DNA of 64,000 bases, taken from positions 1 to 64,000 of the forward strand of contig CAKZKT010000154.1 of assembly GCA_937124585.1 (NCBI GenBank), read 5' to 3'. Position 1 is the stretch's first letter. The number at the start of each line of letters is the position of its first letter. The notes under the pieces are model-generated. The model saw only the letters and a program-made list of their open reading frames with translations, did not search any database and had not been told where the DNA came from. This stretch comes from an uncultured Anaerolineae bacterium. GTDB taxonomy: Bacteria; Chloroflexota; Anaerolineae; CG2-30-64-16. Position numbers and translations under genes: made by a program. Below are positions 172-33,728 of the stretch, one piece after another.

Positions 172-1206
172 TCAACTTCCCATCAAATGACTCAGAATCA
201 GCCAGTCCAGTTCCTCGTAGTCCCGTGCGGCGATCAATTGTGCGACCGCAGCACGATCCAGGGAACGGCTCAATGCCACCAGGCGCAGGAACATGTGAAG
301 GGAGTTCCTGAGATGTTTCGTCGCTAGCTCGGCCGGCTGGGTGCGGATGGCCTTCACGTCCAGCCCCACGACGCCCACTTCCCAGTAGCGATTCTCGTCC
401 AGCACACGCACCTGATTGAACGCGCGGCGCAAGTCCACCGACCCGAACGAGCGATCCTGGTCGAACTTGAGGCCGTTTTGGTCGTTCAAGTGCACGCTCC
501 ACAGCTTGCCGAACGCCATGGCGAAGCCGATCTCGTCGGCCGGATCCAGCCCTGCCAGGATGGAATGCGCCGATTCCATCAGCACGCCGACGCGGCGGGG
601 GTCAGCACTCTGGAAGCCCAGCGCCAGCGCGTGGCCCATGGTGGGGATGTAAGCCAGGTCCATGGGTTCGTTGGGCTTCGGTTCGATCGCGATGCGAATC
701 GTCGGATCGTAGGCCAGCAGTGTGTTGATCGCCTCCAGCAGCTGGTGGGTGGCAGCCCCGACGTTTTTCGCCTCGCGCATGTAGGTGCCCTCGCGTGCCA
801 GCCAGAGCACGATCAGGTCGCATTCCAATTCCTGGGCGATGTCCACCGCGCGTTTGGAGCGCTCGATGGCGTAGGCGCGGGCCTTAGGGTCGTTGGCGGT
901 GAAAGCGCCATCTATCGTCATGGGGTGTTCCCACAACCGCGGGGCCACGAACTCGGCAAACAGGCCGTGGTCCTCCAGCTGTCTCCGCACCAGCCGCGCT
1001 CGTTCCCGGATCTGCTCGGGGGTCAGGTCGTCCAGGTCCGGCACGGCGTCATCGTCGTGGAACTGCACCGCGTCGAAGCCCAACTCCTTGTACAGAAGCA
1101 ACTTCTGCGCAAAGCTCATGCCCGGCCGAACCTCTGGCCCGAACGGATCGGCACCTTTATGGATGTTCCAGGGGCCAAAGGAGAAACGGTAGCCGTATTT
1201 GTCCAT
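172..1206 (-). CDS. Xylose-isomerase-like TIM-barrel sugar isomerase
   Basis: This 344-residue TIM barrel follows the class I xylose isomerase pattern of Actinoplanes and Streptomyces. Visible landmarks are FHDDD with the catalytic His at residue 50, FTANDP near 102, EPKPNEP (Glu175, Lys177), Glu211 with His214, the KFDQD loop (Asp249, Asp251) and Asp283. One metal ligand differs: where true xylose isomerases have HIDLNGQNG, this protein reads SVHLNDQNG, placing His239 at the usual Asp. The substrate may therefore not be xylose. The start at 1206 is chosen because GGAGGGA precedes it; an in-frame start at 1263 lacks a good ribosome site. It is the last gene of the long leftward sugar cluster, 13 bases after a small membrane protein gene. 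The fold call is firm; the substrate is not. Confidence 0.88.
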   Translation of the reverse strand: MDKYGYRFSFGPWNIHKGADPFGPEVRPGMSFAQKLLLYKELGFDAVQFHDDDAVPDLDDLTPEQIRERARLVRRQLEDHGLFAEFVAPRLWEHPMTIDGAFTANDPKARAYAIERSKRAVDIAQELECDLIVLWLAREGTYMREAKNVGAATHQLLEAINTLLAYDPTIRIAIEPKPNEPMDLAYIPTMGHALALGFQSADPRRVGVLMESAHSILAGLDPADEIGFAMAFGKLWSVHLNDQNGLKFDQDRSFGSVDLRRAFNQVRVLDENRYWEVGVVGLDVKAIRTQPAELATKHLRNSLHMFLRLVALSRSLDRAAVAQLIAARDYEELDWLILSHLMGS

Positions 1207-1859: not shown

Positions 1860-3050
1860 CTAATACTTCAGATCAATCTGCCGGCGCGTGGCCGCCGACT
1901 CGACGATTGCGTCACAGACCACCGCGTTGCGATAACCGTCCTCGAAAGTTGCGCCGAAGGGAGCCACATCCCTGTCATTCACAATGCAGTCCAGTAGATG
2001 ATGGATCTCATGAACGAAGGTGTGCTCCCAGCCAATGATGTGGCCATGCGGCCACCAATTGTTGATCCACGGATGGTAGCCCTCGGTCACGATCACCTCA
2101 TGGAAACCCTGCGTCTCCTTCGGCCGATCCTCAACCCAGAAAACCTCTAGCTCGTTCATCCGTTCCAGGTTAAAGCGGATGCTGCCTTTCTCGCCGTTGA
2201 CCTCCAGGCAGTTGTGGTTTTTGTGGCCGGCTGCGAAGCGTGAGCATTCCAGGGTGCCGATAGCACCGTTCTCGAATTCCACTGCCGCCGCAAAGGCATC
2301 ATCCACTTCGACTTTGGCCAACGTGCCATCGGCTGTCGGCCGCTCCGGGATGAAGGTCTTGGTCAGGGCGCTCACACTCTTCATCTCGCCGACCAGGAAG
2401 CGGGCTAGGTCAATGATGTGCGAGCCCAGGTCGCCGAGCGCGCCGCTACCCGCAGCCTGTTTGTCCAGACGCCAGATCATGGGTGTGCCGTAATGAGGCA
2501 TGATCCATTCTTGCAGGTAGACCGCCCGGAAATGGTAAATGCGCCCCAGCTGGCCGCCTTTGATCAGGTTATAGGCCTGGCGAATGGCCGGCACGAAACG
2601 ATAGTTGTGCGCCACCATATGCTTGACGCCAGCTTTGGTGACCGCGTCGAGCATAGCCTTGGCTTCCTCGGCGGTGCGAGCCATCGGTTTCTCGCACAAT
2701 ATGTGCTTGCTGGCGGCGGCAGCCGCAATGCATGGCTCCGCGTGCGCATCGTTGGGGCCGCCGTTGTCGAACAGCTGCACGGCCGGATCGGCCAGCATCT
2801 CACGCCAGTTACTGAAGACCTTGCGGTAGCCGTAGCGTTTCGCCGCCTCGCGGGTGGCCTCCACGTTGCGGCCGCAGATCGCTTCCAGTACGGGAATGGC
2901 CGGCGGCGGATACATCATATAGGGGAGCTTTTTGTACGCGTTGGTGTGCGCCTTGCCCATGAAGGCGTAGCCCAACATGCCCACTCCGATTTCAGGTGCC
3001 GCACCCACAGCTTTGGGGCCGGCCATTGTGGTGAAAGATTGTTCGCTCAT
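1860..3050 (-). CDS. Gfo/Idh/MocA-family NAD(P)-dependent sugar or inositol dehydrogenase
   Basis: This 396-residue oxidoreductase has an N-terminal Rossmann fold with the glycine-rich GVGMLGYAFMG at residues 22-32, the family CEKPMA motif (catalytic Lys121) and the GALGDLGSH segment (Asp207, His211) of the active site. The C-terminal half forms the usual beta-sheet substrate domain. Members oxidise or reduce a hydroxyl of sugars, inositols or sugar derivatives with NAD(P); the exact substrate cannot be read. It starts 3 bases before the stop of the preceding TIM-barrel isomerase gene, so the two are probably translated together. Such oxidoreductase-isomerase pairs are typical of inositol and keto-sugar pathways. 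Confidence 0.93.
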   Translation of the reverse strand: MSEQSFTTMAGPKAVGAAPEIGVGMLGYAFMGKAHTNAYKKLPYMMYPPPAIPVLEAICGRNVEATREAAKRYGYRKVFSNWREMLADPAVQLFDNGGPNDAHAEPCIAAAAASKHILCEKPMARTAEEAKAMLDAVTKAGVKHMVAHNYRFVPAIRQAYNLIKGGQLGRIYHFRAVYLQEWIMPHYGTPMIWRLDKQAAGSGALGDLGSHIIDLARFLVGEMKSVSALTKTFIPERPTADGTLAKVEVDDAFAAAVEFENGAIGTLECSRFAAGHKNHNCLEVNGEKGSIRFNLERMNELEVFWVEDRPKETQGFHEVIVTEGYHPWINNWWPHGHIIGWEHTFVHEIHHLLDCIVNDRDVAPFGATFEDGYRNAVVCDAIVESAATRRQIDLKY

Positions 3051-3053
3051 GGG

Positions 3054-4055
3054 TCACTTCCTCTCGAACGCTGCGTCGAAGGCGACGGCCGACGGCGCGA
3101 AGTCCAACCGGCGCAGGAACGCAGCCGCCTCGGCCGCGCCGTGCTCGCGATCCATCTTGCCGTCCTCCCATTCCACCGACAGCGGCCCCCAATAACCGAT
3201 GTCGTTCAGGGCGCGAATGATCTCCTCGAAGTTGATGGCGCCGCGGCCCAGCGAGCGAAAGTCCCAGAAGCGCCGCGCGTCGCCGAAGGGCAGATGCCCG
3301 CCGAATACACCCGCTTCGGTTGGCTTCCACGACCACCAGACATCCTTCATGTGGACATGGAAGATGCGGTCGGCGAATTTGCGCAAGAACGCCACATAGT
3401 CCACGCCTTGATAGCCGAAGTGGCTGGGGTCGTAGTTGAACCCGAAGGCGGGATGATAGTTGAGCGCCTTCAAGACCGCCTCGGCGCTGGCAATGTCGAA
3501 CGCAATCTCGGTGGGATGCACCTCCAGCGCAAAGCGGACACCCTCCGCCTGGAAGACGTCCAGGATAGGGGTCCACATCTCGGCGACGAACTTGAGCCCG
3601 TTCTCCAGGAAGTCGGGCGGGTTCGGCGGGAACGAGTAGACCATGTGCCAGATAGGCGAACCGGTGAAACCGGGGACGACCTTCACCCCCAGCTTGGCCG
3701 CGGCGCGCGCGGTGTTCTTCATCTCTTCGGCCGCGCGAGCACGCACGCCGTCCTCTTTGCCGTCCCCCCAAATGCGCGGAGGTAGGATGCTTTTGTGGCG
3801 CTCGTCAATGCGGTCGCACACCGCCTGGCCCACCAGGTGGTTGCTGATCGCAAAGCATTTCAGGCCATGCTTGTTCAGGATGTCCCAGCGGCTCTCCACG
3901 TAGCCGTCCTGCTCCAGTGCCTTGTCCACCTCGAAGTGATCGCCCCAGCAGGCGATCTCGACGCCGTCGTAGCCAAACGCTTTGGCCTTCTCGCAGATCG
4001 TGTCGAATGTCAGGTCGGCCCACTGGCCGGTAAACAGTGTGATTGGTCGTGGCAT
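3054..4055 (-). CDS. TIM-barrel sugar phosphate isomerase/epimerase
   Basis: This 333-residue protein of the AP-endonuclease-2/xylose isomerase-like superfamily has the four metal-site elements in order: ALEVHP (Glu178), NYDPSH (Asp209), HVHMKD (His235) and SVEWED (Glu295). The start at 4055 is set by GAGGAGA seven bases upstream; an upstream in-frame reading to 4175 overlaps a separate small relic and has no ribosome site. The motif set closely matches the isomerase at 23456-24418 (ALEMHP, NFDPSH, HMHGKD, SIEHED), so the two are paralogues. It is immediately followed by the Gfo/Idh/MocA gene, suggesting sequential steps on a keto-sugar or inositol derivative. Confidence 0.9.
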
Positions 4056-4080
4056 ATATCTCTCCTCATGATATGATAGA

Positions 4081-4206
4081 TTAGCTTCCATCTGTGCTGT
4101 CGGCGACATCGGCGTACTTGAAACCCCAGTCCCGAATCCGGTCGAGTTGGTGTTCCAGCGCCGAGAACGGATCAATCAGGGCGAAACAACCTACTTTGAT
4201 CCCCAT
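4081..4206 (-). pseudogene. Truncated N-terminus of a TIM-barrel sugar isomerase
   Basis: A 41-codon frame starts at 4206 behind a strong AAGGAGGGA ribosome site and ends at a TAA at 4081. It reads as the first strand and helix of a sugar isomerase ([12 protein letters not shown], then [19 protein letters not shown]) and then stops. The following isomerase gene is in another frame and has its own start and ribosome site, so this is not its true N-terminus. It looks like the stub left by deletion of an isomerase gene, although the intact ribosome site means the peptide could still be made. Confidence 0.6.
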
Positions 4207-4217
4207 GAAATCCCTCC

Positions 4218-5462
4218 TTACCGATACACGCCGTACTCACGCGTGAAATCGAACATCGCCTTCAGGTTTTCCGGCCTGGCCTCGTCCAGCATCACTGCAG
4301 CGTCCATGATCAGGCCTGGCGTACCTTTGGTGTAGTCAATGATCCGTTTGCAGTACCCCTTGACGTCGTCCGGCGTGCCGCCCAGCAACACGATGTTGGG
4401 GACGTTGCCCATCAGACAGATCTTGCCGCCCATCGCGTCCCAGGCACGTTCGAAGTTGGTGTTGGACAGGTGGTAGACAATCTTGCCGGCCGGCATGTCT
4501 GCGATGTGCTCGATGCGGCTCTCCCAATCAGCCTCCCAGTAAACGACCGGAATGATCCCTTTTTCGATCAGCGCCAGCAGGCCCCGGCGCAGGTAGGGCC
4601 AGTAGAACTCCTTGAACTGCGCATCGGACATGAACTCGCGCGTGGACTTGTGGACCCACACCCAGCAGAAGGGCAGCGCTGCGCCCGCCGCACCTGAGCC
4701 ATATTCGACGAAGATCTTCGTTGCGACCTCCAAGGCAGCGTGCAGCTTAGCGGGCCGGCGGCGCATATCGGCCAGGATGGCGCGCGTGCCCCGCAGTGTG
4801 TCGCCGATGATGTCGAAGGGAGGCCAGTCCCATCCGGCGAAAGCCATCGGGAAGCCCTTTGCCCTGGCCTCGCCCCAATACTGGAACTGCGAAGCCCACC
4901 ATTTCGCCGCCTCTTCGGCCCCGGCCTGGACCGCCCGCAGCGACTCCTGATATTCGGGGGTCAGCCAGAAGAAGTTGAGATTCATCCAGCCCGACCACAT
5001 GAAGCGCCGCCAGGGGATAGTCTGTGCAAAGCCCTCCATTGACTTGAACTGCCGCGGGGCCCATTTGCCCAACATAAAGCCGGATGGGTCGTAGACGAAC
5101 TCATCGTACTCGTCGGCCGTCATGTACTCGCCCTCGACGTACTGGTACATGACGTCGTCGTCCAGGCCATGGCCGGGCCATTTGAAGGCCTTCCAGCCAT
5201 AGAGTTCCATCGCCTTGGCCGGATACGCGAAGATGGGGCCGAAATCCACATCGGGCTGGAAGTAATCCAGGAACTTGTGGCAGGCCGCGCGCGCCAGCGC
5301 ATAATCGTTCATGGCGTCTTTGAACGTGACGCCGGCAAACTGATAGGGATACTTCTGGAACGGTCCAAACACCGGGATCCGGTCGGGCTGCTGGCACTGT
5401 GCTGCGGCCAGGACGCGCGCCAGGCGCTCGTTGTAGAGTTCTTCAACTGATTTCTCAGACAT
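4218..5462 (-). CDS. UroD-superfamily corrinoid methyltransferase (MT I-like)
   Basis: This 414-residue protein has the uroporphyrinogen decarboxylase-type barrel used by corrinoid methyltransferases such as MtaA, CmuA and MtvB. It opens with the PDRIP segment common to the family and ends EYGVYR. Where MtaA-type enzymes have an HxC zinc motif, this one reads VVYWEADWESR, like the Region 2 enzyme (31108-32376, VVFYEGVWNQR). A true heme-pathway decarboxylase is unlikely because a corrinoid protein gene starts 33 bases upstream in the same operon. The probable role is moving a methyl group from an unknown donor to that corrinoid protein. The start at 5462 has GGAGG at proper distance; an ATG at 5474 does not. 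Confidence 0.88.
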   Translation of the reverse strand: MSEKSVEELYNERLARVLAAAQCQQPDRIPVFGPFQKYPYQFAGVTFKDAMNDYALARAACHKFLDYFQPDVDFGPIFAYPAKAMELYGWKAFKWPGHGLDDDVMYQYVEGEYMTADEYDEFVYDPSGFMLGKWAPRQFKSMEGFAQTIPWRRFMWSGWMNLNFFWLTPEYQESLRAVQAGAEEAAKWWASQFQYWGEARAKGFPMAFAGWDWPPFDIIGDTLRGTRAILADMRRRPAKLHAALEVATKIFVEYGSGAAGAALPFCWVWVHKSTREFMSDAQFKEFYWPYLRRGLLALIEKGIIPVVYWEADWESRIEHIADMPAGKIVYHLSNTNFERAWDAMGGKICLMGNVPNIVLLGGTPDDVKGYCKRIIDYTKGTPGLIMDAAVMLDEARPENLKAMFDFTREYGVYR

Positions 5463-5494
5463 GGTAGCCTCCATCTGTGTGCGCGCAGGGTCGG

Positions 5495-6124
5495 TCAGGC
5501 GACCCAGCTTTTGGCCAGCCTGACCGCAGCCGCAGCATCGGCGCCATAGGCATCGGCGCCTGTGTAGCGCGCGGCCCCTTCATCCATGATCGCGCCACCG
5601 ATCATGATCTTGACCTGGTCGCGCAGCCCGGCGTCCTGAATAGCCTGGACGGTGCGCTTCATCTGATCGAAAGCCAGGGTCAGGAACCCGCTCATGCCCA
5701 CGATCTGCGGCCTGACCTCCCGGATCTTTTCCACGAACTTCGCTGCCGGCACGTCTACACCCAGGTCGTGGACCTCGAAACCGTTGACGTCCAGCATGAA
5801 GGAAACCACGTCCTTGCCGATGTCATGGATATCGCCGGCGACCGTGCCGATGACAACCTTGCCCAGCCTGGCCGCGGGCGCCGCCTGGCCGTGCAGCTTC
5901 GGCTTTACCATATCGCCGATGGCCTTCATCATCTCGCCCGCGATGATCAGCTCGGGCAGGTAGTACTCCTTCTGGTCAAACCGGTTGCCGACGATGGTCA
6001 TCGCCTGGCTGGCTGCCTCGAGGATGGCCTGCGGATCCTCGCCTGCATCCAGCATGGCCTGGGCCAGTTGTATGGCCTCCGCTTCGTTTATGTCTGCAAT
6101 GGCCGCAATAAGCTTTTCCCTCAT
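5495..6124 (-). CDS. Corrinoid (B12-binding) methyl-carrier protein
   Basis: This 209-residue protein matches the MtbC/MttC/MtvC family. An N-terminal helical cap (about residues 1-85) is followed by a Rossmann-like cobalamin domain with GDIHDIGKD, in which Asp98 and His100 form the DxHxxG signature; His100 is the lower axial cobalt ligand. Length is normal. It is very like the corrinoid protein at 30471-31106 in both cap and B12 domain. The start at 6124 is preceded by AGGAGTG. It lies between the UroD-type methyltransferase and a MetH-activation-like protein, and would carry the methyl group between them and an acceptor. Confidence 0.94.
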   Translation of the reverse strand: MREKLIAAIADINEAEAIQLAQAMLDAGEDPQAILEAASQAMTIVGNRFDQKEYYLPELIIAGEMMKAIGDMVKPKLHGQAAPAARLGKVVIGTVAGDIHDIGKDVVSFMLDVNGFEVHDLGVDVPAAKFVEKIREVRPQIVGMSGFLTLAFDQMKRTVQAIQDAGLRDQVKIMIGGAIMDEGAARYTGADAYGADAAAAVRLAKSWVA

Positions 6125-6220
6125 TGGATTCACTCCTGAGATCTGGTTGCGTTCCCACAAACGTTCGCATCCAGGGATGCTCATCCCACCACGAGGCAAA
6201 CCACGGCGTCCACCGCGGCG

Positions 6221-6913
6221 TCATGCAAGGCGCAGTCGGCGCTGCGCGCACCGTTCGCGAATGGTGCAAAAGTCGCAGTTGCTGGCGCCTTCCACACCCA
6301 GCGGCCCCGGACCGATGCCTATGATCAACGAGAGCGACTTGATGGGCGACATCACCAACGACTCGTTCAACGTCACGCCGATCGGCCGCGCGTCCAACAG
6401 CGAGAAGATCACCGCCTGATCGCCGACCGACCATTCCGACTCGCCGGGCGAGAGCGAAGCACTGGCGCGCCGGCCACGGCCGACCGCATCCGCCTCGATC
6501 GCCCGACACAGTTGCTGGCGCACCTGGTCCACCGCCCATGAGCCAAGGTCGTCCAGGAACATGGCCCGCAGCCGGTGCCCGTTGCGCTGGTACTCTGAGA
6601 TGCGCCGGCTGACGGCCGCACCGGCCGTGCAAACACCCACGGCGAGCTCCGTGGCGCCTGCCACCACAGTTACCACAGGGCCGCCGCCGATCCTTGTCCC
6701 GTCGGCCAGGATCACGCGCTCATGCCGGAATTCGCGGATCGGGAAGACTTCCCAGACCGCCGCCGGCTCGACCAGCGCCCGGGCATCAGCCAGGGCCGCT
6801 TCCCAATCGGCCCGCACGTCGGGCCGCGCCAGCAATCTCGGCAAATTGCCGCCGACCTGAGCAAGATAGCGTTCTGTATCGAAATGAATGTCCCAGCCGC
6901 GCCGAATGCGCAT
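6221..6913 (-). CDS. MetH activation-domain-like protein with C-terminal Cys cluster
   Basis: This 230-residue protein resembles the cobalamin-dependent methionine synthase activation domain, the part of MetH that binds S-adenosylmethionine for reductive reactivation, but stands alone. The central and C-terminal parts carry the family pattern (LDDLGSWAVD near 113, SLSPGESEWS near 150, GVTLNESLVMSP near 177). The C-terminus adds CDFCTIRERC (Cys213, 216 and 222, CX2CX5C), suggesting an iron-sulfur or zinc site. It is probably the repair partner of the corrinoid protein encoded 96 bases downstream, performing reductive methylation of cob(II)alamin. No ribosome site is clear; its start follows the preceding gene's stop by 10 bases. 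Confidence 0.8.
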   Translation of the reverse strand: MRIRRGWDIHFDTERYLAQVGGNLPRLLARPDVRADWEAALADARALVEPAAVWEVFPIREFRHERVILADGTRIGGGPVVTVVAGATELAVGVCTAGAAVSRRISEYQRNGHRLRAMFLDDLGSWAVDQVRQQLCRAIEADAVGRGRRASASLSPGESEWSVGDQAVIFSLLDARPIGVTLNESLVMSPIKSLSLIIGIGPGPLGVEGASNCDFCTIRERCAQRRLRLA

Positions 6914-6923
6914 ATCGCCCTGT

Positions 6924-7778
6924 TCAATCTCGCCCCATCAGCTGGCGCAGAAATGCCAGACCGTCCGCAGCCAGGCTATCGCTTGTCGGTGCCAGAGGCC
7001 GCCAGACAGCCGCGGCGCGCGCGATCTCCTTCACCTCGGTTGAGAACGATTCGATGACCAATGCGCCGCTGAAGTTGATCTTCTTCAACGCAGCCGCGAC
7101 TTCAGCCCAGGCTACATGCCCGCTGCCGGGGGCGCCACGATCATTTTCGTTGGCATGGACGTGCCACAGCTTGTCGCTGGCCATCTCGATGGCTTTGCCC
7201 AATTGCTTCTCCTCGATGTTGGCGTGGAAGGTGTCCATCATCAGGCCAACCGCCGGGCTGCCGATCAGCTCCACCAGCTCCAGAGCCTGTTCGGTGAGGT
7301 TGATGAAACTGGTCTCGAAACGGTTCAGCGGCTCGATGGCCAGCCTCACCCCTTTCTTCTCTGCGTACTCGGCTGCGACGCGCAGGTTCTTTGCCGCCAG
7401 TGCCAGATCAGCCTTGCGTTGCTCTGGGGTCTGTTGCCACTGCCGACCCACTGCGGCATAGATTGGGCCTGCTACCAGTGTACCGCCCATGCGGGCTGTA
7501 CCGTCAATGCAATGCTTCAAGTACGCGATCCCGGCCTGCTGGATCTGCTCGTCCGGGTGCGATGGATCTCGGCCGGCGCCCATCACGGCGCAAGTGGTGC
7601 AGGCCAATCCGGTACGCACGTAAACTTCGGCTGCTGCGTCATAATCCAAGTCGCCGGGGCTCTCGATGGGAATCTCCACCAGATCGAACCCCAGTGCCTT
7701 TGCGTGATCCAGCAAGTGCAGGTCCTTACTCTGAAATGGCGACGCCCAGATGAAGGTGTTGATGCCGTACTTGATCAC
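6924..7778 (-). CDS. D-tagatose/D-psicose 3-epimerase-like sugar epimerase
   Basis: A TIM barrel of 284 residues with the motif order of the ketose 3-epimerase family: LAIEPLNRFE (Glu149), MMDTFHANIEE (Asp182), WHVHANENDRG (His208) and LVIESF (Glu243). These four residues bind the metal and include the two catalytic glutamates. The start is taken as GTG at 7778, preceded by AAGGAG; an ATG 45 bases upstream gives an N-terminus unlike the family. It lies between the zinc dehydrogenase and the MetH-activation-like gene, consistent with interconversion of keto-sugars or inosose-like compounds. Confidence 0.9.
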   Translation of the reverse strand: MIKYGINTFIWASPFQSKDLHLLDHAKALGFDLVEIPIESPGDLDYDAAAEVYVRTGLACTTCAVMGAGRDPSHPDEQIQQAGIAYLKHCIDGTARMGGTLVAGPIYAAVGRQWQQTPEQRKADLALAAKNLRVAAEYAEKKGVRLAIEPLNRFETSFINLTEQALELVELIGSPAVGLMMDTFHANIEEKQLGKAIEMASDKLWHVHANENDRGAPGSGHVAWAEVAAALKKINFSGALVIESFSTEVKEIARAAAVWRPLAPTSDSLAADGLAFLRQLMGRD

Positions 7779-7813
7779 TGGGTTGTGCTCCTTCTGCGAG
7801 GAAACAAGGAAAT

Positions 7814-7875: not shown

Positions 7876-8940
7876 TCATGGTGTCACCTGTACTTTGATC
7901 GGATCGTCCTTGCGCGCTCGCAGATTGACAATGGCCGTCGCGGCCTCCGAGAGCGGCACGGCCTTGCTGACCAATGGCTCCAGGTTCAGCAAGCCATTGG
8001 CGATCATGGCGATGGTGGTGGGCCAGACACCGGGTGCCAGCCAGGAAAAACGGATCTCCTTGTCGGCCGTGTGGGTGGCCAATGCCGGCACATGGATCAC
8101 ATCGCCGGCATCCGGCAGGCCGAAGTGCACGATGATCGCCGCGCCGCCGGTGACATCTATGGCTTGTTCGAACGCAGCGTTGGAGCTGGTCGGCACGATG
8201 GCGCGATCGGCCAACTGGCCATACGTCAGGTCGGCGATGGCGGCCTTCAAATCTTTGACGAAATAGGGAGAACTCTCGTCCTTCGTGTTAAAGACGTAGT
8301 CGGCGCCCCACTTCCTGGCTTCTTCCAGGCGGTAATCGCGGGTGCCGACCATCGCCACCTTGCCGGCGCCGATCGCCTTTGCCATTTGGACCATCATGAT
8401 GCCGATGGGGCCGGGGCCAAAGATCACCACGAACTGACCCGGCTCGATGGCCAGCTTTTTCATGCCGTAGACGGCGCAGGCCAGCGGCTCGATGAACGCA
8501 CCCGCAGCGTAGCTGACGTTGTCGGCCAACTTAAAAAGGCCGGTGTAGCGCGAGAGCGCGTACTCGGCGAACGCGCCATCCGCGTTCACGCCCGGCACAT
8601 AAAGATTGGCGCACAGGTTGGTGTGTCCGCTGGCGCACGCATAGCAGGCATTGCAATGCTGCACCGGGTTGACCACCACGCGGTCGCCGGGCTTGAACAA
8701 CCCTAGCGACTTGGGGATTGCGCCTACCTCCACCACCTCGCCGGTGAACTCGTGCCCCAACACGATGGGCATCTTGCCCGTGGGGCTCAAGCCGAAGTAG
8801 TAGGAGATGTCCGAACCACAGATGCCACAGTTCCTGACCCTTACCAGCACATCGGCATCCCCCACCTTGGGGATGGGCAGCTCTTGTAATTCCATCCTCT
8901 CCGGTGCCAGGAAAACCTGGGCTTTCATCGTCTCTGCCAT
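7876..8940 (-). CDS. Zinc-dependent polyol/alcohol dehydrogenase (MDR family)
   Basis: This 354-residue medium-chain dehydrogenase keeps the catalytic zinc site (Cys41 in CGICGSD, His63-Glu64 in LGHEF) and all four structural zinc cysteines (Cys96, 99, 102, 110 in HCNACYACASGHTNLC). A Rossmann GPGPIG motif follows at about residue 175. The layout is that of sorbitol, threonine and other secondary-alcohol dehydrogenases that oxidise a polyol carbon with NAD(P). A strong AAGGAGG precedes the ATG. It sits between two TIM-barrel isomerase genes, consistent with oxidation of a sugar alcohol or inositol to a keto-sugar. Confidence 0.92.
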   Translation of the reverse strand: MAETMKAQVFLAPERMELQELPIPKVGDADVLVRVRNCGICGSDISYYFGLSPTGKMPIVLGHEFTGEVVEVGAIPKSLGLFKPGDRVVVNPVQHCNACYACASGHTNLCANLYVPGVNADGAFAEYALSRYTGLFKLADNVSYAAGAFIEPLACAVYGMKKLAIEPGQFVVIFGPGPIGIMMVQMAKAIGAGKVAMVGTRDYRLEEARKWGADYVFNTKDESSPYFVKDLKAAIADLTYGQLADRAIVPTSSNAAFEQAIDVTGGAAIIVHFGLPDAGDVIHVPALATHTADKEIRFSWLAPGVWPTTIAMIANGLLNLEPLVSKAVPLSEAATAIVNLRARKDDPIKVQVTP

Positions 8941-8951: not shown

Positions 8952-9848
8952 TTATCCGTACTTCGCAACGAGCTCATCCATGAACGCCTTCGTGGGCGGC
9001 GTTGCTTCCAGGGCGCCCTCCCAGAAGCAGAGGTCAATGGGCCACCACTCGTCGGTGTAGCCCGCGTCGTAAAGTGCTTTGACGATGGCCGGGAAGTCGA
9101 GCACACCTTTGCCGAACGGCGCGTGGGTGCTGGTCTCCTCGTGGTGCAGCGTCCCGTCCGAGTCAATGAAATGCACGTGGCCGATCTTGCCGGTGAGCAT
9201 ATGGGCCAACTGAACCACGCCACCCGGCAAAGTCTCTTTTTCGCCGAGCTGACGTGAGCCGATCACCGAGCACATATAGGCGTGGCAGGAATCGAACAGC
9301 ACGCCGAAGTTCGGGTGATTCACTGCATAGCACAGCCGGACAATTTCGCTGGGCTTGTTCAGGTAGAAGCCCGGCTCGAACTCCCATACAAGCTTAATCC
9401 CGTATCGGCCACACACCTCGGCAGCGCGATGCCAGACGTCCGCGTAGCGCCAGAAGCAGGTCTCGTAGTCCAACCCGCCGGGGATGCCAGTGGGCGGTGC
9501 GTTAGTGTCCACTCGTAGTTTGGGGATATTCATGTCCAGGCAGATCTCGATCTGGCGCTTGACCTGGTCGAGATAGTCATTGGGATTGATCAGCGCTGGC
9601 ACGCCCGCGAACGCACCAGCGATACCCGAGATGCTGAGGCCGTGGTCGTCAAGCCACTTCTTGATCTCGAGTCGCTTCTCCCGGTTGGTGTAATCAGCCG
9701 GCCCGTAGTGGGGGTCGAATGCACCGAATTCAATGCCATCGAACTTTAGCTCGGCCAGCCGCTGTACAACCGTGGGGAGCGGGATCGGCTTGTCCGCATA
9801 GCCTCCCCAAATGTATGCCCAGGTTCCTACGGAAATCTTCTTAGCCAT
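8952..9848 (-). CDS. TIM-barrel sugar phosphate isomerase/epimerase
   Basis: This 298-residue protein is of the xylose isomerase-like barrel superfamily. Candidate metal ligands lie in WEFEPGFYLN (near residue 150), VLFDSCHAYM (near 187) and GHVHFIDSDG (near 229), with DEWWPIDLCF as the last barrel strand. It is closer to the inosose dehydratase/hexulose isomerase type than to the epimerase at 6924-7778. It is 11 bases upstream of the dehydrogenase gene. The substrate cannot be told. Confidence 0.88.
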   Translation of the reverse strand: MAKKISVGTWAYIWGGYADKPIPLPTVVQRLAELKFDGIEFGAFDPHYGPADYTNREKRLEIKKWLDDHGLSISGIAGAFAGVPALINPNDYLDQVKRQIEICLDMNIPKLRVDTNAPPTGIPGGLDYETCFWRYADVWHRAAEVCGRYGIKLVWEFEPGFYLNKPSEIVRLCYAVNHPNFGVLFDSCHAYMCSVIGSRQLGEKETLPGGVVQLAHMLTGKIGHVHFIDSDGTLHHEETSTHAPFGKGVLDFPAIVKALYDAGYTDEWWPIDLCFWEGALEATPPTKAFMDELVAKYG

Positions 9849-9958: not shown

Positions 9959-11158
9959 CTATCGGCTATAGTGCGGAATCATCGGCACATCCAGGTTGAT
10001 ATCCGGCCCAAAGAACTTGAAAATGATCAGGTCGCTGTGGCCTGTGTTTTCCACCGAGATCGGTCGGATCGCTGCATCGTGCGAGATCAAGAGCTCGTCG
10101 AAGCCGAAATGACCGCCTTCGACCTCGTGGCCGCCGTAGCGGCCTTTGCCGCGCCAGACCAGGATGTTGTAGACACCTCTGTCTACACTCTGGAAGGTCT
10201 TGCCCGCCTTCACGATCAGACGCTTGCCGCTGAACTTGGTGGTGTTGTAGTAGATCCAATGCTCTTCCCCGCCCTCTTGCCTGGTCTCTTCCACCAGCAC
10301 AGGCGAGGTGTGGTGGTTCTCGTAGAAGTATGGGTCGCCGCTGATCTCCCAGTTGATCTGGTCCAAGACTGCCTGTTCGCCGCGCGTGGCGCGCGCCTCA
10401 GGGGTGACATCTTTGAAGAGGAGGTGCTTGGAGATGATTTTGCCCGCGTTCAGGGCTTGGAGCATGGCGAAGACGTCGGAGTCCTCTTGCAGTTCGATGG
10501 TCAGCGCGGTGCCCGGCGCGTGCAGCACGCCGGACGGCAGATGGAATCCTTCGCCCGGCACCAACAGATAGGCGCGCGAGTGTTTCAGGATCAGATCGTC
10601 CTTCCATTCCACCAGGTGTTGCAGGAGGAGCTCTTGTTTGCCTTGCTCGACGATGTAGGGGTGGACGCCGAAGAAGGTCTCCGGGTGCGGGCCCAAGTCA
10701 ACGTCCTCTGGGAAGTAGTAGGCCTCTTCTTTGGGATTGGCACCTACCAACCTGGCGTCCTTCTCCATTTGGTGGATGTGAAACGGGATGCGCGCGGCGA
10801 AGTCGTAGATTTTCGCCAGGCGGCCCAGGCCTTTGTGTGTCCTGGCGTATTCGGCGCCCATGATCAGGTCGCCTGCGACCTCGACTGCCTCTTTGAGGGT
10901 GATTCGCGCGCCCTCGATGGCCAGATAGCTCAGCCCCTCGTCCGGCGGCCCTACCCGGTTATCGGCCCTGGTAGTCGAGCCAAGCCATCGCTCGCAGATC
11001 CAACCCCGCTCGCCCACGTCGTACTCTTCATCCTTCAAGCCCAGTCGCTTGCCGGGTGGCAGGAAATCTCGCGCTACCCATGCCGGCTCTAGCCGCAGGA
11101 TGCCATTGCCCTGGGCCAGGGCGGCAGCGATGGTGTCACGCTTTGTGTTATCTGTCAT
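9959..11158 (-). CDS. Cupin mannose-6-phosphate-isomerase-like protein
   Basis: This 399-residue protein has two cupin-like halves. A metal-site pattern is visible at IPFHIHQMEKDA followed by HPETFFG and, further on, a jelly-roll strand GEGFHLPSGVLHAPGTALTIE typical of type I mannose-6-phosphate isomerases. The C-terminal half is a second jelly roll (ISVENTGHSDLIIFKFFG). Isomerisation of mannose-6-phosphate or another aldose/ketose is likely, but the length and second half suggest a divergent substrate. The start at 11158 has GGAG upstream; an ATG at 11173 is possible. It sits between the GH4 glycosidase and TIM-barrel isomerase genes. Confidence 0.78.
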   Translation of the reverse strand: MTDNTKRDTIAAALAQGNGILRLEPAWVARDFLPPGKRLGLKDEEYDVGERGWICERWLGSTTRADNRVGPPDEGLSYLAIEGARITLKEAVEVAGDLIMGAEYARTHKGLGRLAKIYDFAARIPFHIHQMEKDARLVGANPKEEAYYFPEDVDLGPHPETFFGVHPYIVEQGKQELLLQHLVEWKDDLILKHSRAYLLVPGEGFHLPSGVLHAPGTALTIELQEDSDVFAMLQALNAGKIISKHLLFKDVTPEARATRGEQAVLDQINWEISGDPYFYENHHTSPVLVEETRQEGGEEHWIYYNTTKFSGKRLIVKAGKTFQSVDRGVYNILVWRGKGRYGGHEVEGGHFGFDELLISHDAAIRPISVENTGHSDLIIFKFFGPDINLDVPMIPHYSR

Positions 11159-11306
11159 GCCTCTACACTCCATCTCACGATGTGTGCTTCCTTGAAAATT
11201 CTCTCATATCCGGCAAATCACCACGAGTGAGCAGGATTGACCGAACGAACGGTAGTTCACAGCACATTCGTTCGATCCTCTTGATTCGTCGTCATCCCAC
11301 GGCGTT

Positions 11307-12719
11307 TCACCGCGCCAACTCGCCAAATCGCGCCGCGATGGCCAGTGCCGGATCGATCGGCACGTGCGCCCGTTTGACGTCCTTCGGGATCGAGATGGTC
11401 GGGGTGGGTTTGACCGTCTTGCCTTCGAACTGCGGCAGCCACTGTTTCTCGGCTTCCAGCATTTCGGCCACCATCTCGCGGGTCTCTTTCAGCGTCAGCA
11501 CCGCCGAGGTCAACGGATCCATGGCACAGGCCAGCACCGCCTTTTCCGGGTCGCCCTCGATGCCGGCCTCCACCGCCAGCCGCTGGACGTTGATGTTGGT
11601 CATGTTCAGCGCTGCGCACTGCGAGGGGAGCGCGCCGACGAAAGTTTTGTGGATGCCGGTGCGGTCTACGAACAACGGGTACTCGGCGCAACAATCGGCT
11701 GGCAGGTTGGTGATCATGCCCTCGTTGATGACATTACCGTTCAGCTTGAAGGTTTTACCCGTCTCCAGTGCCTCAATGATGTAGGAGCCGTATTCGACGC
11801 TGCGCGGGGGCAGGGTGGTGGGCTGGCCGGCCAGGATGTCCTGGCCCTCGTACTTATCTGCCACGTACTTGCACCAGTTGTAGTACGCGCCGCTCTCGCC
11901 GCCAAAGGACGGCTCGTCGCAATAAAGCGCCATTGCCCGCTCGGTGCTGCGAAACCAGGGTACATACTCCGACAAGTGGCCAGTGGACTCGGTCATGAAG
12001 TAGCCGAAATGGCGGAAGACTTCTCCGCGCACCTTCTCGTTGACGTAGTACTCTGGCTCCTCGAAGCGCGCGCGCAGCCTGGGATATAGATCTTGTCCTT
12101 TGTGTTCCAGCTTCAGGAACCAGGCCATATGGTTGATGCCTGCGGCCAGAAAGTCAATTTCTTCTTTCGGCACACCCACGTAACCGGAAATCAGATCTAG
12201 AGTAGTCTGCACGCCGTGGCAGAGGCCCACGAATTTGACCTTTGTCGTGCCCAATGCCCAGCAGATCATGGCCATGGGGTTGACGTAGTTCAGCAGATAG
12301 GCGTTCGGGCAGAGCTCTTCCATGTCGTGGGCCATGGCGAGCGTGGTGGGGATGCTGCGCAGCGCACGGAAGATGCCGCCCGGCCCCATGGTATCGCCGA
12401 TGCACTGGTCCACACCGTGCTTCAGCGGGATCTTGTAGTCATACTCGAAGCCTTGCACTCCGCCTACCTGAAAGGTGGCGATAACATAGTCCGCGTCCTT
12501 CAGCGCCGCGCGACGGTCGGTGGTGACCCACACGCTGGCGTTCAGGCCGTTCTCCTGAATGACCCGTTTGGTAAACGTCTCCAGTTGAGACGTACGTCTG
12601 GTGCTGGGCGCCATCAGTGCGAATTCGGTTCCTTTAACGCCCGGCGTCCCCAAGATATCCAGAATGAGCGTCTGGCAGAAGACAATGCTCCCTGCGCCGA
12701 TGATGGCAACTTTAGCCAT
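11307..12719 (-). CDS. GH4-family NAD+/metal-dependent alpha-glycosidase (alpha-galactosidase-like)
   Basis: This 470-residue protein is a glycoside hydrolase family 4 enzyme. It starts with a Rossmann NAD site (IIGAGS, residues 6-11), has NYVNPM (Asn148), CHGVQ (Cys167, His168) and INHMAW (His197) that place the divalent metal, and IGDTMGPGGIFRALR over the substrate. GH4 enzymes cleave by transient oxidation at C3. The CHGVQ and INHMAWF pattern is like MelA alpha-galactosidase/alpha-glucuronidase rather than 6-phospho-glycosidases. It is encoded next to the ATPases of the sugar importer, so it probably hydrolyses the imported glycoside in the cytoplasm. Confidence 0.93.
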   Translation of the reverse strand: MAKVAIIGAGSIVFCQTLILDILGTPGVKGTEFALMAPSTRRTSQLETFTKRVIQENGLNASVWVTTDRRAALKDADYVIATFQVGGVQGFEYDYKIPLKHGVDQCIGDTMGPGGIFRALRSIPTTLAMAHDMEELCPNAYLLNYVNPMAMICWALGTTKVKFVGLCHGVQTTLDLISGYVGVPKEEIDFLAAGINHMAWFLKLEHKGQDLYPRLRARFEEPEYYVNEKVRGEVFRHFGYFMTESTGHLSEYVPWFRSTERAMALYCDEPSFGGESGAYYNWCKYVADKYEGQDILAGQPTTLPPRSVEYGSYIIEALETGKTFKLNGNVINEGMITNLPADCCAEYPLFVDRTGIHKTFVGALPSQCAALNMTNINVQRLAVEAGIEGDPEKAVLACAMDPLTSAVLTLKETREMVAEMLEAEKQWLPQFEGKTVKPTPTISIPKDVKRAHVPIDPALAIAARFGELAR

Positions 12720-12747: not shown

Positions 12748-13824
12748 CTATTCCGAGAATCGCACCCCGGTGGTGCGATCGAAGAAGTGCAATCGCTCGC
12801 GGACGATGCCGAACCGCACGCTTTCGCCTCGCGAAAGCGGCGAGATGCCCGGTACGGTGCTGACCAGGGTCTGCCGGCCGATCCTGATGTGCAACAACGT
12901 CTCGACGCCCAGTGGCTCGGTCAGGGCGATTTCGCCTGCGAACAGGCCAGCCGGATCGGGGCGTACGTCTTCGGGGCGGATGCCCAGGATAAACTCGCAC
13001 GGCAGATTCGCCGGGTCGGTACACAGCTCACACGCCGGCAGGTGCACGTCGCTATCCATGATGGTGATCACACCGCCATCTGTGGCTGCGTTCAGCAGAT
13101 TGATCTTGGGAGAGCCGACGAGCTGGGCCACGAAAGTCGTGGCCGGCCGATCGTAGATATCTTCCGGCGTGCCCACCTGGACGATGCAGCCGTGGTTCAA
13201 CACGCCGATACGGTCGGCCATGGTCAACGCCTCGATTTGGTCGTGGGTTACGAAGAGGGTGGTGCTGCCCTGGGTGCGCTGCAAATGCGACAGCTCCACG
13301 CGCAACGCCTCGCGCAGCTTGGCATCCAGGTTCGACAACGGCTCATCCATGAGGTAGACACGTGGGTTACGGACAATGGCGCGACCGATGGAGACGCGTT
13401 GCATCTCGCCGCCGGAGAGGCGGGCCGTCTTGCGCTGCAGCAGATGGCTGATCCGCAACACCTCGGCCGTCTCGGTGACTCGCTTCCTGATCTCCTCTTC
13501 CTTCATCCTGCGCAGGGGTGCGCGCAGAGGAAAGGCCAGATTCTCGTACACGGTCATGGTCGGATAGAGCGAATATTGCTGAAAGACGAAAGCCACATCT
13601 CGATCGGCGGGCGGCAATGTATCCACCGGCTGTCCATCGAACGCGACGCTGCCGGCATCTTGCTTGGTCAGGCCGGCAATGATGCGCAATGTGGTGGTCT
13701 TGCCGGCGCCGGTGGGGCCCAGCAATACGAAAAACTCCGCGTGTTTGACCTCAAAAGAAACATTGTTGAGGGCGGTCACCGTCCCGAAACGCTTGGTGAT
13801 GTTCTGCAGCGTGATCTGGCTCAT
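12748..13824 (-). CDS. Sugar ABC transporter ATPase (MalK/UgpC type), copy 1
   Basis: This 358-residue ATPase has Walker A GPTGAGKT (about 36-43), signature LSGGEMQR (about 136), Walker B VYLMDEP and the H-loop THDQ. The C-terminal OB-fold regulatory region of about 120 residues is characteristic of MalK/UgpC. It overlaps the next ATPase gene by 4 bases (ATGA), so the two are translationally coupled. Together they probably form a heterodimer powering the two permeases at 15075-17017. Confidence 0.94.
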   Translation of the reverse strand: MSQITLQNITKRFGTVTALNNVSFEVKHAEFFVLLGPTGAGKTTTLRIIAGLTKQDAGSVAFDGQPVDTLPPADRDVAFVFQQYSLYPTMTVYENLAFPLRAPLRRMKEEEIRKRVTETAEVLRISHLLQRKTARLSGGEMQRVSIGRAIVRNPRVYLMDEPLSNLDAKLREALRVELSHLQRTQGSTTLFVTHDQIEALTMADRIGVLNHGCIVQVGTPEDIYDRPATTFVAQLVGSPKINLLNAATDGGVITIMDSDVHLPACELCTDPANLPCEFILGIRPEDVRPDPAGLFAGEIALTEPLGVETLLHIRIGRQTLVSTVPGISPLSRGESVRFGIVRERLHFFDRTTGVRFSE

Positions 13825-14939
13825 CCCCGCACCTCTTTGGCAATCGCCTTCTCGCTCTCAGGGTCGAAGAAACGTACCATTTCCGGGTTCAGGTCGAACC
13901 GCACCAGCGACCCGATGACGTAATGTACATCGCGACGGGCACGGATATGGACGATCGTGTCTTCACCGTTGCCGTTCGGCCGGAGCTCTCCGTTCAAGCT
14001 GACGTGCAGCATGGTATACGAGCCATGCAGGTCCGAGGCATAGACCATGCCCCGGATCGCGCCGGTTTCGCTCACCTGTGCCGCTTCGGGCCGAAAGCCG
14101 ACGATCACGTCATCCCGCTGCCATCTGGCGGCTAGGGTCGGCCTCCACGCTGGCGGGGTGGGATACACACTGCCGCCACGCAAATGCACCTCATCTCCGA
14201 CATATTTGCCCGGGACCAGGTTCATGCCTGGGCTGCCGATGAAGTTGGCCACGAACAGGTTGGCCGGATCGTGGTATACCTGGGCCGGTGTGCCGATCTG
14301 TTGCACCTCGGCCGCAGACATGACGACGATGCGATCACCCATAGCCATTGCCTCCACCTGGTCGTGCGTCACGTAAACGGTGGTGGCGTGTTGCGCCAAG
14401 TGCAGCCGTTTAATCTCTGCGCGCATGACCTCACGGAACTCGGCGTCCAGCGCGCCCAGCGGTTCATCCATCAGGAAACAGGCCGGCTTGCGTACCAGTG
14501 AGCGGGCCAGGGCAACCCGTTGCTTATCACCGCCGCTCAATGCAGGCGGCTTGCGCTGCAGCAGATGGCCGATCTCCAACAGCTTGACAACCTCTGCGAC
14601 CCTCTGATTGATCTCCGCGCGCTTCATCCCCTGCGACTCCAGCGGGAACGCGATGTTCTGGCGTACGGTCATCTGGGGATAGAGTGCGAAGAACTGGAAT
14701 ACGAATGCGATATCGCGCTGGCTGGCGCTCAACCAGGTCACGTCCTTGCCGTTGATGAAGATCCTGCCCTCTGTGACGGCCTCCAGGCCGGAGATCATGC
14801 GCAGCGTGGTGGTTTTGCCGCAGCCAGAGGGGCCCAACAGTGCCACAAATTCGCCGTCGTAGATCGTGAGGTCCATCGGCTTCACGGCCCATAAATCGCC
14901 GAATTTCTTTGCGACTTGTCTGAGTTCGATTTCTGCCAT
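13821..14939 (-). CDS. Sugar ABC transporter ATPase (MalK/UgpC type), copy 2
   Basis: This 372-residue paralogue of the neighbouring ATPase has Walker A GPSGCGKT, signature LSGGDKQR, Walker B CFLMDEP and THDQ, plus the C-terminal regulatory OB domain. The start at 14939 has GAGG upstream; an ATG at 14951 is less likely. Two different ATPases next to two permeases suggest a heterodimeric motor, where many carbohydrate importers use a homodimer. Confidence 0.94.
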   Translation of the reverse strand: MAEIELRQVAKKFGDLWAVKPMDLTIYDGEFVALLGPSGCGKTTTLRMISGLEAVTEGRIFINGKDVTWLSASQRDIAFVFQFFALYPQMTVRQNIAFPLESQGMKRAEINQRVAEVVKLLEIGHLLQRKPPALSGGDKQRVALARSLVRKPACFLMDEPLGALDAEFREVMRAEIKRLHLAQHATTVYVTHDQVEAMAMGDRIVVMSAAEVQQIGTPAQVYHDPANLFVANFIGSPGMNLVPGKYVGDEVHLRGGSVYPTPPAWRPTLAARWQRDDVIVGFRPEAAQVSETGAIRGMVYASDLHGSYTMLHVSLNGELRPNGNGEDTIVHIRARRDVHYVIGSLVRFDLNPEMVRFFDPESEKAIAKEVRG

Positions 14940-14978
14940 AACTAGCCTCATAAGTTCCGGGTAGTCGGATGGCCGATT

Positions 14979-15045
14979 CCAGGTCGGAAGGTTTCAGGTT
15001 GAAGGTTCAGCCTGTCAATCTGAAATCTGGAACCTGATAACCTGG
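14979..15045. repeat. Imperfect inverted repeat between ATPase and permease genes
   Basis: CCAGGT (14979-14984) and TCAGGTT (14994-15000) pair with AACCTGA (15031-15037) and ACCTGG (15040-15045), forming a nested stem in the 135-base gap between the second ATPase gene and the inner permease gene. The gap contains several AGGTT/AACCT words and looks like a decayed dispersed repeat. Confidence 0.4.
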
Positions 15046-15074
15046 AGCCCGCAACCTGCCAACCCGCAACGCCG

Positions 15075-16088
15075 TTACTGCCGTATTGCGCCGAAGGTGA
15101 CCCCGCGCAGCAGGTACTGACGTAGTGCGAAAGTGACGATAACCACCGGGATCAGGAAGAGCATGGAACCGGCCGCAATCACATGCCATTCGATGCCGCC
15201 GATGCCCAGGTTGGCCGGAATGGCCGGCGGAGCGGTGCGAGCCTTTTCGCTGGTCAGCATGAGCGCGAACGCATATTCATTCCAGGCAAAGATCAGGCAG
15301 AAGACCGCTGTCGCGGCGATGCCCGTCACGCACTGCGGCAGGACGATCTTGCGAAAGGCCTGTAACCGGCTATAGCCATCCACCAGCGCTGCTTCCTCGT
15401 ACTCGATGGGAATCTCGTCAATGAACCCTTTCAGCAGCCAGACGGAGAAGGAGAGATTAAACACCGTGTAGAGCAAGATCATCCCGACATGGGTATCGTA
15501 CAGGCCCACAGCGCGGTACATCAGGAAGATGGGAATAGTCACGACCACGGCGGGCAACATGCGCGTGCTCAAAATGAAGAAGAGCCAGTCGCGCTTGCCG
15601 GGAATGTCGTAGCGGCTGAACGCGTATGCCGAGAGCAGCCCCAACGTGACCGCCAGAATCGTCGAACTGATTGCGATGATCAGCGAGTTGCTGAGCTGGC
15701 TCACGAACTTGCTCGGCCCCAGGATGCGCATGCCGCGCGCCAGTGTCTGCCTCTCCCAGAAGTTCAGGTCGGTGCGTTGTTGCTGCTCTGCCAGCGCCGC
15801 CGCAGACAGCTGCGTCCGATTGGTGAAGAGGCCGATAAAGCCATCCAGGGAGGGCACAAAGATAACCTTTGGCGGCGAAGCGGTGGCATCGGGCCGTGCC
15901 TTGAAAGCGGTCATCGCCATCCACAGCACCGGGATCAACATGACAAAGGCGATGATGATGGAGAGGATCAACCGCGCCGTGATACCCAGCCTGGCGCGAG
16001 GTGTGATTTGATCCACGCGCACCGATTCAACGACCGCGAAGCCAGGCCCTACCCGACTGAAAGCGTGCTCGACGCGGGTGCTTGCCAT
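15075..16088 (-). CDS. Sugar ABC transporter permease (MalG-like)
   Basis: This 337-residue inner-membrane permease begins with a hydrophilic tail of about 40 residues and then has six membrane helices. The EAA loop that contacts the ATPase is visible as YEEAALVDGYSRLQAFRKI (near residue 235). A periplasmic segment of about 75 residues follows the first helix, as usual in MalG types. It starts 2 bases after the stop of the partner permease gene, so the pair is one transcript. Confidence 0.93.
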   Translation of the reverse strand: MASTRVEHAFSRVGPGFAVVESVRVDQITPRARLGITARLILSIIIAFVMLIPVLWMAMTAFKARPDATASPPKVIFVPSLDGFIGLFTNRTQLSAAALAEQQQRTDLNFWERQTLARGMRILGPSKFVSQLSNSLIIAISSTILAVTLGLLSAYAFSRYDIPGKRDWLFFILSTRMLPAVVVTIPIFLMYRAVGLYDTHVGMILLYTVFNLSFSVWLLKGFIDEIPIEYEEAALVDGYSRLQAFRKIVLPQCVTGIAATAVFCLIFAWNEYAFALMLTSEKARTAPPAIPANLGIGGIEWHVIAAGSMLFLIPVVIVTFALRQYLLRGVTFGAIRQ

Positions 16089-16090
16089 GG

Positions 16091-30470: not shown

Positions 30471-31106
<636 letters not shown>

Positions 31107-31107
31107 T

Positions 31108-33663: not shown

Positions 33664-33728
33664 GCCGGCCCGGCAACAACGGGGGAATCGCCGAACCTGA
33701 GCCTCCACCATCGCGGAGGGTGGGAGGA

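Follow-up and report, generated by a model that had tools for sequence, protein, structure and literature searches.

Many polysaccharides of plants, algae, and bacteria contain methylated sugars. In the searchable literature, the known route for demethylating a sugar is P450 oxidative (PMC10033563), and corrinoid-dependent sugar demethylation was not found there, in agreement with the first-pass annotation, to which no pathway of this kind was known as established in these bacteria. In the CdmBCA chloromethane system of Acetobacterium dehalogenans, the donor enzyme CdmB belongs to the UroD superfamily, lacks zinc, and is paired with a separate corrinoid protein, and MT2 and an activator complete the system (PMC13222342). 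The methoxy-aromatic O-demethylases MtvB, OdmB, VdmB, and MtoB fall in the same superfamily and also have four parts, namely a donor enzyme, a corrinoid protein, a folate-side enzyme, and an activator (PMC13222342).

The window analyzed here, a stretch of 64,000 nucleotides from an uncultured Anaerolineae bacterium, contains a carbohydrate operon that runs in one direction from 172 to 18776 and includes UroD1, CP1, and MetHact. A UroD-type methyltransferase, a corrinoid protein, and a MetH-activation-like protein had been reported among codirectional sugar genes, and every gene named was found in its place on the minus strand. The features of the operon are as follows.

172..1206, minus strand: xylose-isomerase-like TIM barrel (TIGR02631, 206 bits, cut-off 447)
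1860..3050, minus strand: LgdA-like Gfo/Idh dehydrogenase (NF052479, 374.6 bits, below the cut-off of 650; PDB 6a3f, 6.1e-95)
3054..4055, minus strand: TIM_B, a 2-hydroxy-3-keto-glucal hydratase-like TIM barrel (2zds, 1.8e-127; 8ro4, 6.9e-40)
4080..4205, minus strand: 41-codon remnant of a TIM_E sugar isomerase-like gene (88-89% identity to the N-terminus of the intact TIM_E at the same position in genomes G003 and G115)
4218..5474, minus strand: UroD1, UroD-type methyltransferase, apparently a substrate:corrinoid enzyme (MT I) (Pfam URO-D, CdmB match, UroD/MtaA fold)
5495..6124, minus strand: CP1, corrinoid protein (B12-binding and B12-binding_2 over cut-off; D-x-H-x-x-G motif)
6221..6913, minus strand: MetHact, MetH-activation-like protein (Met_synt_B12 below threshold; kept with UroD1 in stand-alone modules)
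6924..7778, minus strand: ketose-3-epimerase-type TIM barrel (best PDB match D-tagatose 3-epimerase, 4.8e-43)
7876..8940, minus strand: zinc-dependent MDR dehydrogenase (ADH_N, ADH_zinc_N; IolM model 214.5, cut-off 450)
8952..9848, minus strand: TIM_C, xylose-isomerase-like TIM barrel (PF01261, 127.5 bits)
9959..11173, minus strand: CUP404, phosphomannose-isomerase (PMI)-fold protein of no named family (AF2 pLDDT 83.7; Foldseek to mannose-6-phosphate isomerases, 3.6e-16)
11307..12719, minus strand: GH4 enzyme, alpha-galactosidase subfamily (NF011657, 534.8 bits, over the cut-off of 486, a family score and not a sugar specificity)
12748..18776, minus strand: CUT1-type carbohydrate ABC importer with two ATPases, two permeases, and the binding protein at 17385-18776 (Pfam SBP_bac_8, BPD_transp_1, ABC_tran)

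The intergenic gaps were mostly -4 to 162 bp, with two larger gaps of 319 and 367 bp. Promoter and terminator scans were at chance level, and the terminator-like matches did not exceed those in shuffled sequence. A foreign base composition of the cassette was also considered, and none was convincing (UroD1 0.607, CP1 0.622, and MetHact 0.671, with the remainder of the operon at 0.57-0.63).

An inositol pathway was rejected as the host pathway. The IolM, IolO, IolG, and IolE models all scored far below their cut-offs, leaving inositol, which had been suggested as a substrate class, without family-level support. Among the Thermotoga-type models, IolG reached 119.6 bits (cut-off 355), IolM 214.5 (450), and IolO 146.8 (300), and the levoglucosan-dehydrogenase and D-psicose-epimerase models outscored IolG and IolO. 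A literature search on IolN returned nothing useful. From the 3-keto-glycoside/levoglucosan set, a dehydrogenase-like gene (374.6/650) and a hydratase-like gene (8ro4, 6.9e-40) were present in the operon, and the eliminase and reductase were not identified in it.

UroD1, whose true start judged from homologs is probably at 5462, was compared with its relatives. The Pfam URO-D domain scored 85.1 bits (cut-off 23.9), and a fold search returned the UroD/MtaA fold; CdmB was not returned by this search, whose library ends in April 2026. The closest solved relative was CdmB (1e-28 with the single sequence), and in profile comparison CdmB reached 8.5e-45 versus 4.1e-5 for MtaA and 4.8e-4 for UroD. 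In the UroD1 tree, CdmB was represented by its C-terminal part only and had a long branch, and its tree position was not used. The columns of the zinc-ligand H and C of MtaA are occupied by Y312 and E314 in UroD1, and the third position has no Cys. TIGR01463 scored 30.7 bits (cut-off 235). The reading of UroD1 as an MtaA/MtbA-type acceptor-side methylcorrinoid:thiol methyltransferase was rejected, because the H-x-C...C zinc site is missing. With CdmB nearest, the MtaA zinc positions replaced, and a corrinoid protein as partner, UroD1 looks like a donor-side substrate:corrinoid methyltransferase of the CdmB group. The proteins L038-L049 (~38-40% identity to UroD1), first taken for the same system, formed a separate clade with other neighbors and no sugar TIM barrels.

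CP1 matched B12-binding (81.7 bits) and B12-binding_2 (51.1 bits), both above their cut-offs; its D-x-H-x-x-G motif (GDIHD-x-G) was invariant. Its gene adjoined UroD1 both in the window and at every orthologous locus whose sequence was read on that side. MetHact scored 16.4 bits against Met_synt_B12 (PF02965; cut-off 25), with an ortholog at 24.3, and the match covered the C-terminal part only. It was kept near UroD1 in other genomes, and its role is probably corrinoid reactivation. Intact full-length MetH was not found in genome G000, where only domain pieces were present. The methyl-transfer gene list of the first-pass annotation was correct as far as it went and did not mention another corrinoid module, located at 27.3-35.5 kb, with MT2, RACo, two further corrinoid proteins, and a second UroD. 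These features and a further pair are listed here.

24696..27136, plus strand: class II aldolase and xylulokinase-like FGGY kinase
29632..30426, plus strand: MT2, methyl-H4folate:corrinoid methyltransferase (NF005719, 325.3 bits, cut-off 259)
30471..32376, plus strand: CP2 and UroD2, second corrinoid protein/methyltransferase pair (UroD2 33% identical to UroD1)
33720..35531, plus strand: RACo, ATP-dependent corrinoid reductive activator (RACo_C_ter, 286.7 bits, cut-off 27)

Both domains of a RACo-type activator were present (C-terminal ASKHA, 286.7/27 bits; Fer2, 48.8/21 bits). The genome also encodes Fhs, MTHFR, and an acetyl-CoA synthase (CdhC) domain, which could form a C1/Wood-Ljungdahl outlet for the methyl group.

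The distribution of the cassette was then examined. UroD1 belongs to a single clade across 16 genomes, often in the order CP1-UroD1-RACo-MetHact, and the module is rare, being present in 14/396 genomes of the class at E<=1e-110. Sugar genes and cassette occurred together in four genomes. The arrangement goes beyond chance, as genomes of three families, namely G027, G003, and G115 (the last with a rearrangement), kept the operon with the cassette. G004 has the operon without the cassette, a natural swap at one position. In G002 and G655, of different families, CP1-UroD1 lies behind another CUT1 importer, all five proteins of which are 59-65% identical. The TIM_E isomerase gene, decayed in the window and intact in relatives, adjoins UroD1 in G003, G115, and G681 and is found in further UroD1 genomes. 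The neighborhood test for a sugar link gave 9/16 versus 1/27. Genome-wide, UroD1 and CUP404 co-occurred strongly (5/7 versus 1/143, p=2e-7, in counts that ignore phylogeny and transfer), even where the two genes were unlinked.

Conserved synteny and genome co-occurrence connect UroD1 with carbohydrate genes, and the reading that we prefer, with a probability of roughly 0.5, is that UroD1-CP1 is a corrinoid-dependent O-demethylase cassette for a methyl ether of a CUT1-imported carbohydrate (sugar, cyclitol, or glycone). We infer that the carbohydrate is the methyl donor, that transfer runs in the direction and order given here, and that CP1 is the partner of this particular MT2 and RACo. The methylated carbohydrate would enter through the CUT1 ABC importer, and UroD1 would bind it and set its CH3 beside the Co(I) of CP1, with methyl-Co(III)-CP1 and a carbohydrate freed of its methyl group as the products. 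MT2 (29632) would pass the methyl on to tetrahydrofolate, from which the Wood-Ljungdahl/C1 genes of the same genome could take it, and CP1 in the Co(II) state would be rescued by RACo, probably also by MetHact. Demethylation would precede isomerization, with the product processed by the GH4, the LgdA-like dehydrogenase, the hydratase-like and epimerase-type TIM barrels, the PMI-fold protein, and the xylose-isomerase-like protein; the G004 operon fits such a peripheral demethylation step.

Counting against the carbohydrate reading, cleavage of an aliphatic ether is chemically harder. All characterized UroD-type donor enzymes described in PMC13222342 act on methoxy-aromatics or haloalkanes. Several UroD1 modules (L074, L085, L071, and L073) lack a sugar gene within the stretch of DNA that was read, and the G004 operon does without the cassette. 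The earlier proposal of a methylated sugar or inositol ether demethylated by corrinoid chemistry gains from the CdmB-group assignment and from the linkage to carbohydrate genes, while its placing of the methyl on the sugar or inositol itself goes further than these data; the methyl may sit on the glycone or on the methoxy-aglycone of a glycoside.

The likeness of two of its gene products to those of 3-keto-glycoside cleavage operons makes a methoxylated aglycone a rival to be taken seriously, if an unlikely one. The operon would then take a natural-product glycoside apart through oxidation, beta-elimination, hydration, and reduction, with UroD1 demethylating the methoxylated aromatic aglycone and not the sugar. 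The LgdA-like dehydrogenase and the 2-hydroxy-3-keto-glucal-hydratase-like TIM barrel recall glycoside beta-elimination operons (PMC10628242), and CdmB relatives use methoxy-aromatics (PMC13222342); however, no aromatic-pathway gene was recognized in the operon, a CUT1 carbohydrate importer precedes the module in G002 and G655, and the GH4 belongs to an alpha-galactosidase subfamily. It is improbable that UroD1-CP1-RACo-MetHact landed in the operon as a passenger, being a mobile module that transfers methyl from a non-sugar substrate. The cassette-free operon of G004, the stand-alone modules without sugar genes, the 92% identity of UroD1 between two families versus 60-80% for flanking genes, and a chloromethane enzyme as nearest solved relative speak for it, whereas the placement retained in three other genomes, the association with two different CUT1 importers, the partner gene TIM_E, and the co-occurrence of unlinked genes speak against it. 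Housekeeping of methionine/folate C1 units, with UroD1 carrying methyl to or from CP1, a thiol or folate being the other partner, while MetHact completes a split methionine synthase, would suit the MetH pieces of G000, the resemblance of MetHact to a MetH activation domain, and genes near the L074 module that resemble, as read by eye, sulfur amino-acid genes, but it is very improbable given the rarity of the module and the missing thiol site, for which a methionine synthase reading was rejected, and it leaves the sugar linkage unexplained.

Beyond this locus, we tentatively suggest, at somewhat less than even odds, that a zinc-free UroD-type family may need no oxygen to cleave aliphatic methyl ethers in sugars or cyclitols, clade-invariant residues (e.g., E314, R320, H335, and D391) assisting the leaving alkoxide, as a swappable cassette in Chloroflexota sugar operons with relatives in Actinomycetota and Planctomycetota. 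If the O-demethylase reading is true, a UroD-type clade of unknown donor would gain a substrate class. The idea lends itself to direct tests, given a conserved cassette, an operon that occurs both with and without that cassette, and a pair of importers.

Compared with the Cdm system, the locus shares the pairing of a UroD-superfamily enzyme with a separate corrinoid protein; UroD1, however, aligns well with CdmB mainly over its own C-terminal half, and the cassette sits in a carbohydrate operon with MetHact added. MtvB, OdmB, VdmB, and MtoB are alike in superfamily and in the four parts, a likeness by description and not by sequence, but no aromatic genes were recognized beside UroD1. The LgdA-like dehydrogenase and hydratase-like TIM barrel have likely counterparts in 3-keto-glycoside beta-elimination/levoglucosan operons, in which a corrinoid module is not reported (PMC10628242), whereas here GH4, PMI-fold, and epimerase-type genes are added. 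P450 demethylation of 6-O-methyl-D-galactose in marine bacteria matches the proposed purpose, removal of a methyl ether from a sugar, but it uses O2 and releases formaldehyde (PMC10033563), whereas the corrinoid route, if true, would run without oxygen and save the methyl as methyl-tetrahydrofolate.

The sugar operon was read on the minus strand from 18776 to 172. A carbohydrate ABC importer of CUT1 type comes first, then a GH4 enzyme and CUP404. After these come a TIM barrel, then a zinc dehydrogenase, and then a TIM barrel of epimerase type, which is followed by the cassette MetHact-CP1-UroD1. Past UroD1 lie a hydratase-like TIM barrel (TIM_B), a Gfo/Idh enzyme resembling LgdA, and a small membrane protein, and the run ends with a xylose-isomerase-like protein. 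The central features are as follows:

9959-11173, minus strand, CUP404, a 404-aa protein
6221-6913, minus strand, MetHact, MetH-activation-like protein
5495-6124, minus strand, CP1, corrinoid protein
4218-5474, minus strand, UroD1, UroD-type methyltransferase
4080-4205, minus strand, 41-codon remnant, after UroD1, of the isomerase-like TIM barrel TIM_E; 88-89% identical to the intact genes that G003 and G115 have at this position
3054-4055, minus strand, TIM_B
1860-3050, minus strand, LgdA-like enzyme

Most intergenic gaps were <165 bp, and terminator-like matches within the operon did not exceed chance level. The genes from which the first-pass annotation had proposed corrinoid demethylation of a methylated sugar or inositol, then isomerisation, were found at their positions. 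The MetH-activation match of MetHact was sub-threshold (~32 residues), but one ortholog scored near the cut-off. Upstream of the operon, a histidine kinase (20151-23312, minus strand) adjoins a response regulator and is kept in G004 (L127); its three sensor repeats are nearly identical and look PAS-like by eye.

A single-sequence search of the PDB matched UroD1 to one protein only, the Acetobacterium dehalogenans chloromethane enzyme CdmB (1e-28), and a 15-sequence profile gave 8.5e-45 for CdmB versus 4.1e-5 for MtaA and 4.8e-4 for UroD. At the MtaA H-x-C zinc positions UroD1 carries Y312-x-E314, and E314 and R320 are conserved in nearly all aligned donor-type homologs. Zinc was not detected in CdmB, whose kin MtvB, OdmB, VdmB, and MtoB demethylate methoxy-aromatics (PMC13222342). 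The CdmB match, the replaced zinc positions, and the UroD/MtaA fold of the AF2 model (pLDDT 77.6) support a donor-side (MT I) role; transfer direction and donor are inferred.

A second corrinoid module, missed by the first-pass annotation, lies on the plus strand at about 29-35.5 kb, downstream of an aldolase and an FGGY kinase. It contains DUF1638, MT2, CP2, UroD2, an MFS-like transporter, and RACo; MT2, a methyl-H4folate:corrinoid methyltransferase, scored above the NCBIfam cut-off. With CP1-UroD1, this module completes a methyl-transfer system of donor enzyme, corrinoid protein, folate-side enzyme, and activator, in which MT2 and RACo would act for CP1. The same genome encodes Fhs and MTHFR, and also a haem-copper oxidase and an acetyl-CoA synthase domain of CdhC type. 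DUF1638 (about 28991-29635, plus strand) is a constant neighbour of MT2, corrinoid protein, and UroD genes. A CP3 (corrinoid protein)/GntR-type regulator pair (27295-28771, minus strand), which might be a corrinoid-based sensor, precedes the module, divergent from DUF1638-MT2-CP2-UroD, and recurs in numerous relatives (L044, L046-L048, L050, L055, L057, L061, L062, and L064).

UroD1 orthologs were searched in relatives, the class, the phylum, and one named-genome scan. Fifteen further genomes carried one (about 51% identity or above), forming one clade (support 100/100) that takes in a Thermoleophilia and a Planctomycetota MAG; within the class UroD1 is rare (14/396 genomes at E<=1e-110). The unit CP1-UroD1-RACo-MetHact recurs (L074, L084-L088), which places MetHact in the corrinoid module rather than among the sugar genes. 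A separate UroD clade (L038-L049; about 37-39% to UroD1) carries a CP2-like protein, and its frequent neighbours are an ABC importer whose two ATPases are short (about 234 and 239 aa), an MDR dehydrogenase, and a protein of 573 aa. Beside the UroD1 module of G647, a rhamnose mutarotase has a further UroD-type gene on each side, and one of these two genes keeps the H-x-C motif intact (L086 3901-6499, minus strand).

Sugar genes and cassette occur together in G027 and G003, and rearranged in G115. In G002 and G655, genomes of different families, CP1-UroD1 stands behind another CUT1 importer (five proteins, 59-65% identical between the two genomes). With phylogeny and contig extent ignored, 9/16 genomes had a TIM barrel of sugar type or a CUT1 binding protein near UroD1, versus 1/27 loci in other UroD clades (p=1.7e-4). 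Orthologs (>=74%) of UroD1 and CUP404 co-occurred in 5/7 UroD1 genomes versus 1/143 others (p=2e-7; by genus 1.7e-5), likewise ignoring phylogeny and contig extent, with G024 and G087 of the same genus; in two of these genomes the genes are not adjacent. G004, of the window's own family, keeps the operon from the histidine kinase-response regulator pair through the xylose-isomerase-like gene (identities: MDR 91%, TIM_B 85%, LgdA-like 79%). There the cassette position is occupied by a protein of 101 aa and a further Gfo/Idh (L127 15235-16713, plus strand), and the G004 genome yielded no UroD1 ortholog (best E 2e-10). The cassette was therefore swapped at one position; the G004 pair may offer another way of processing the same modified sugar or a different one.

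TIM_E adjoins UroD1 in G003 and G115 and a stand-alone module in G681. It occurs in further UroD1-bearing genomes (G087, G527, G606, G647, G656) and in G049, a relative that lacks UroD1. In G647 it lies within an operon of the same type, alongside the xylose-isomerase-like gene and an FGGY kinase. L149, L151, and L034, from UroD1-bearing genomes, hold a conserved UPF0261-creatininase-TIM_E set near a gene for LarA, which resembles lactate racemase; the set may be a second branch of the same sugar pathway.

As to substrate, inositol found no family-level support: all inositol models scored below their cut-offs. GH4 scored above the alpha-galactosidase subfamily cut-off, the 6924 product is of ketose 3-epimerase type, and CUP404 has a phosphomannose-isomerase fold. 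The matches of TIM_B to the 2-hydroxy-3-keto-glucal hydratase 8ro4 (6.9e-40) and of the 1860 product to the LgdA group make C3-oxidation chemistry, as described in PMC10628242, likely. The candidate substrates are a methylated glycone and a glycoside with a methoxy-aglycone.

Cleavage of an aliphatic ether by Co(I) would be chemically demanding, and this difficulty is both the chief doubt and the chief interest. In the open-licence papers searched, no sugar or cyclitol was found to be demethylated by a corrinoid-dependent route; the closest sugar precedent there is the removal of the methyl group from 6-O-methyl-galactose by a P450-dependent reaction (PMC10033563). The parts and logic of the system are already known, and the carbohydrate setting is its new element.
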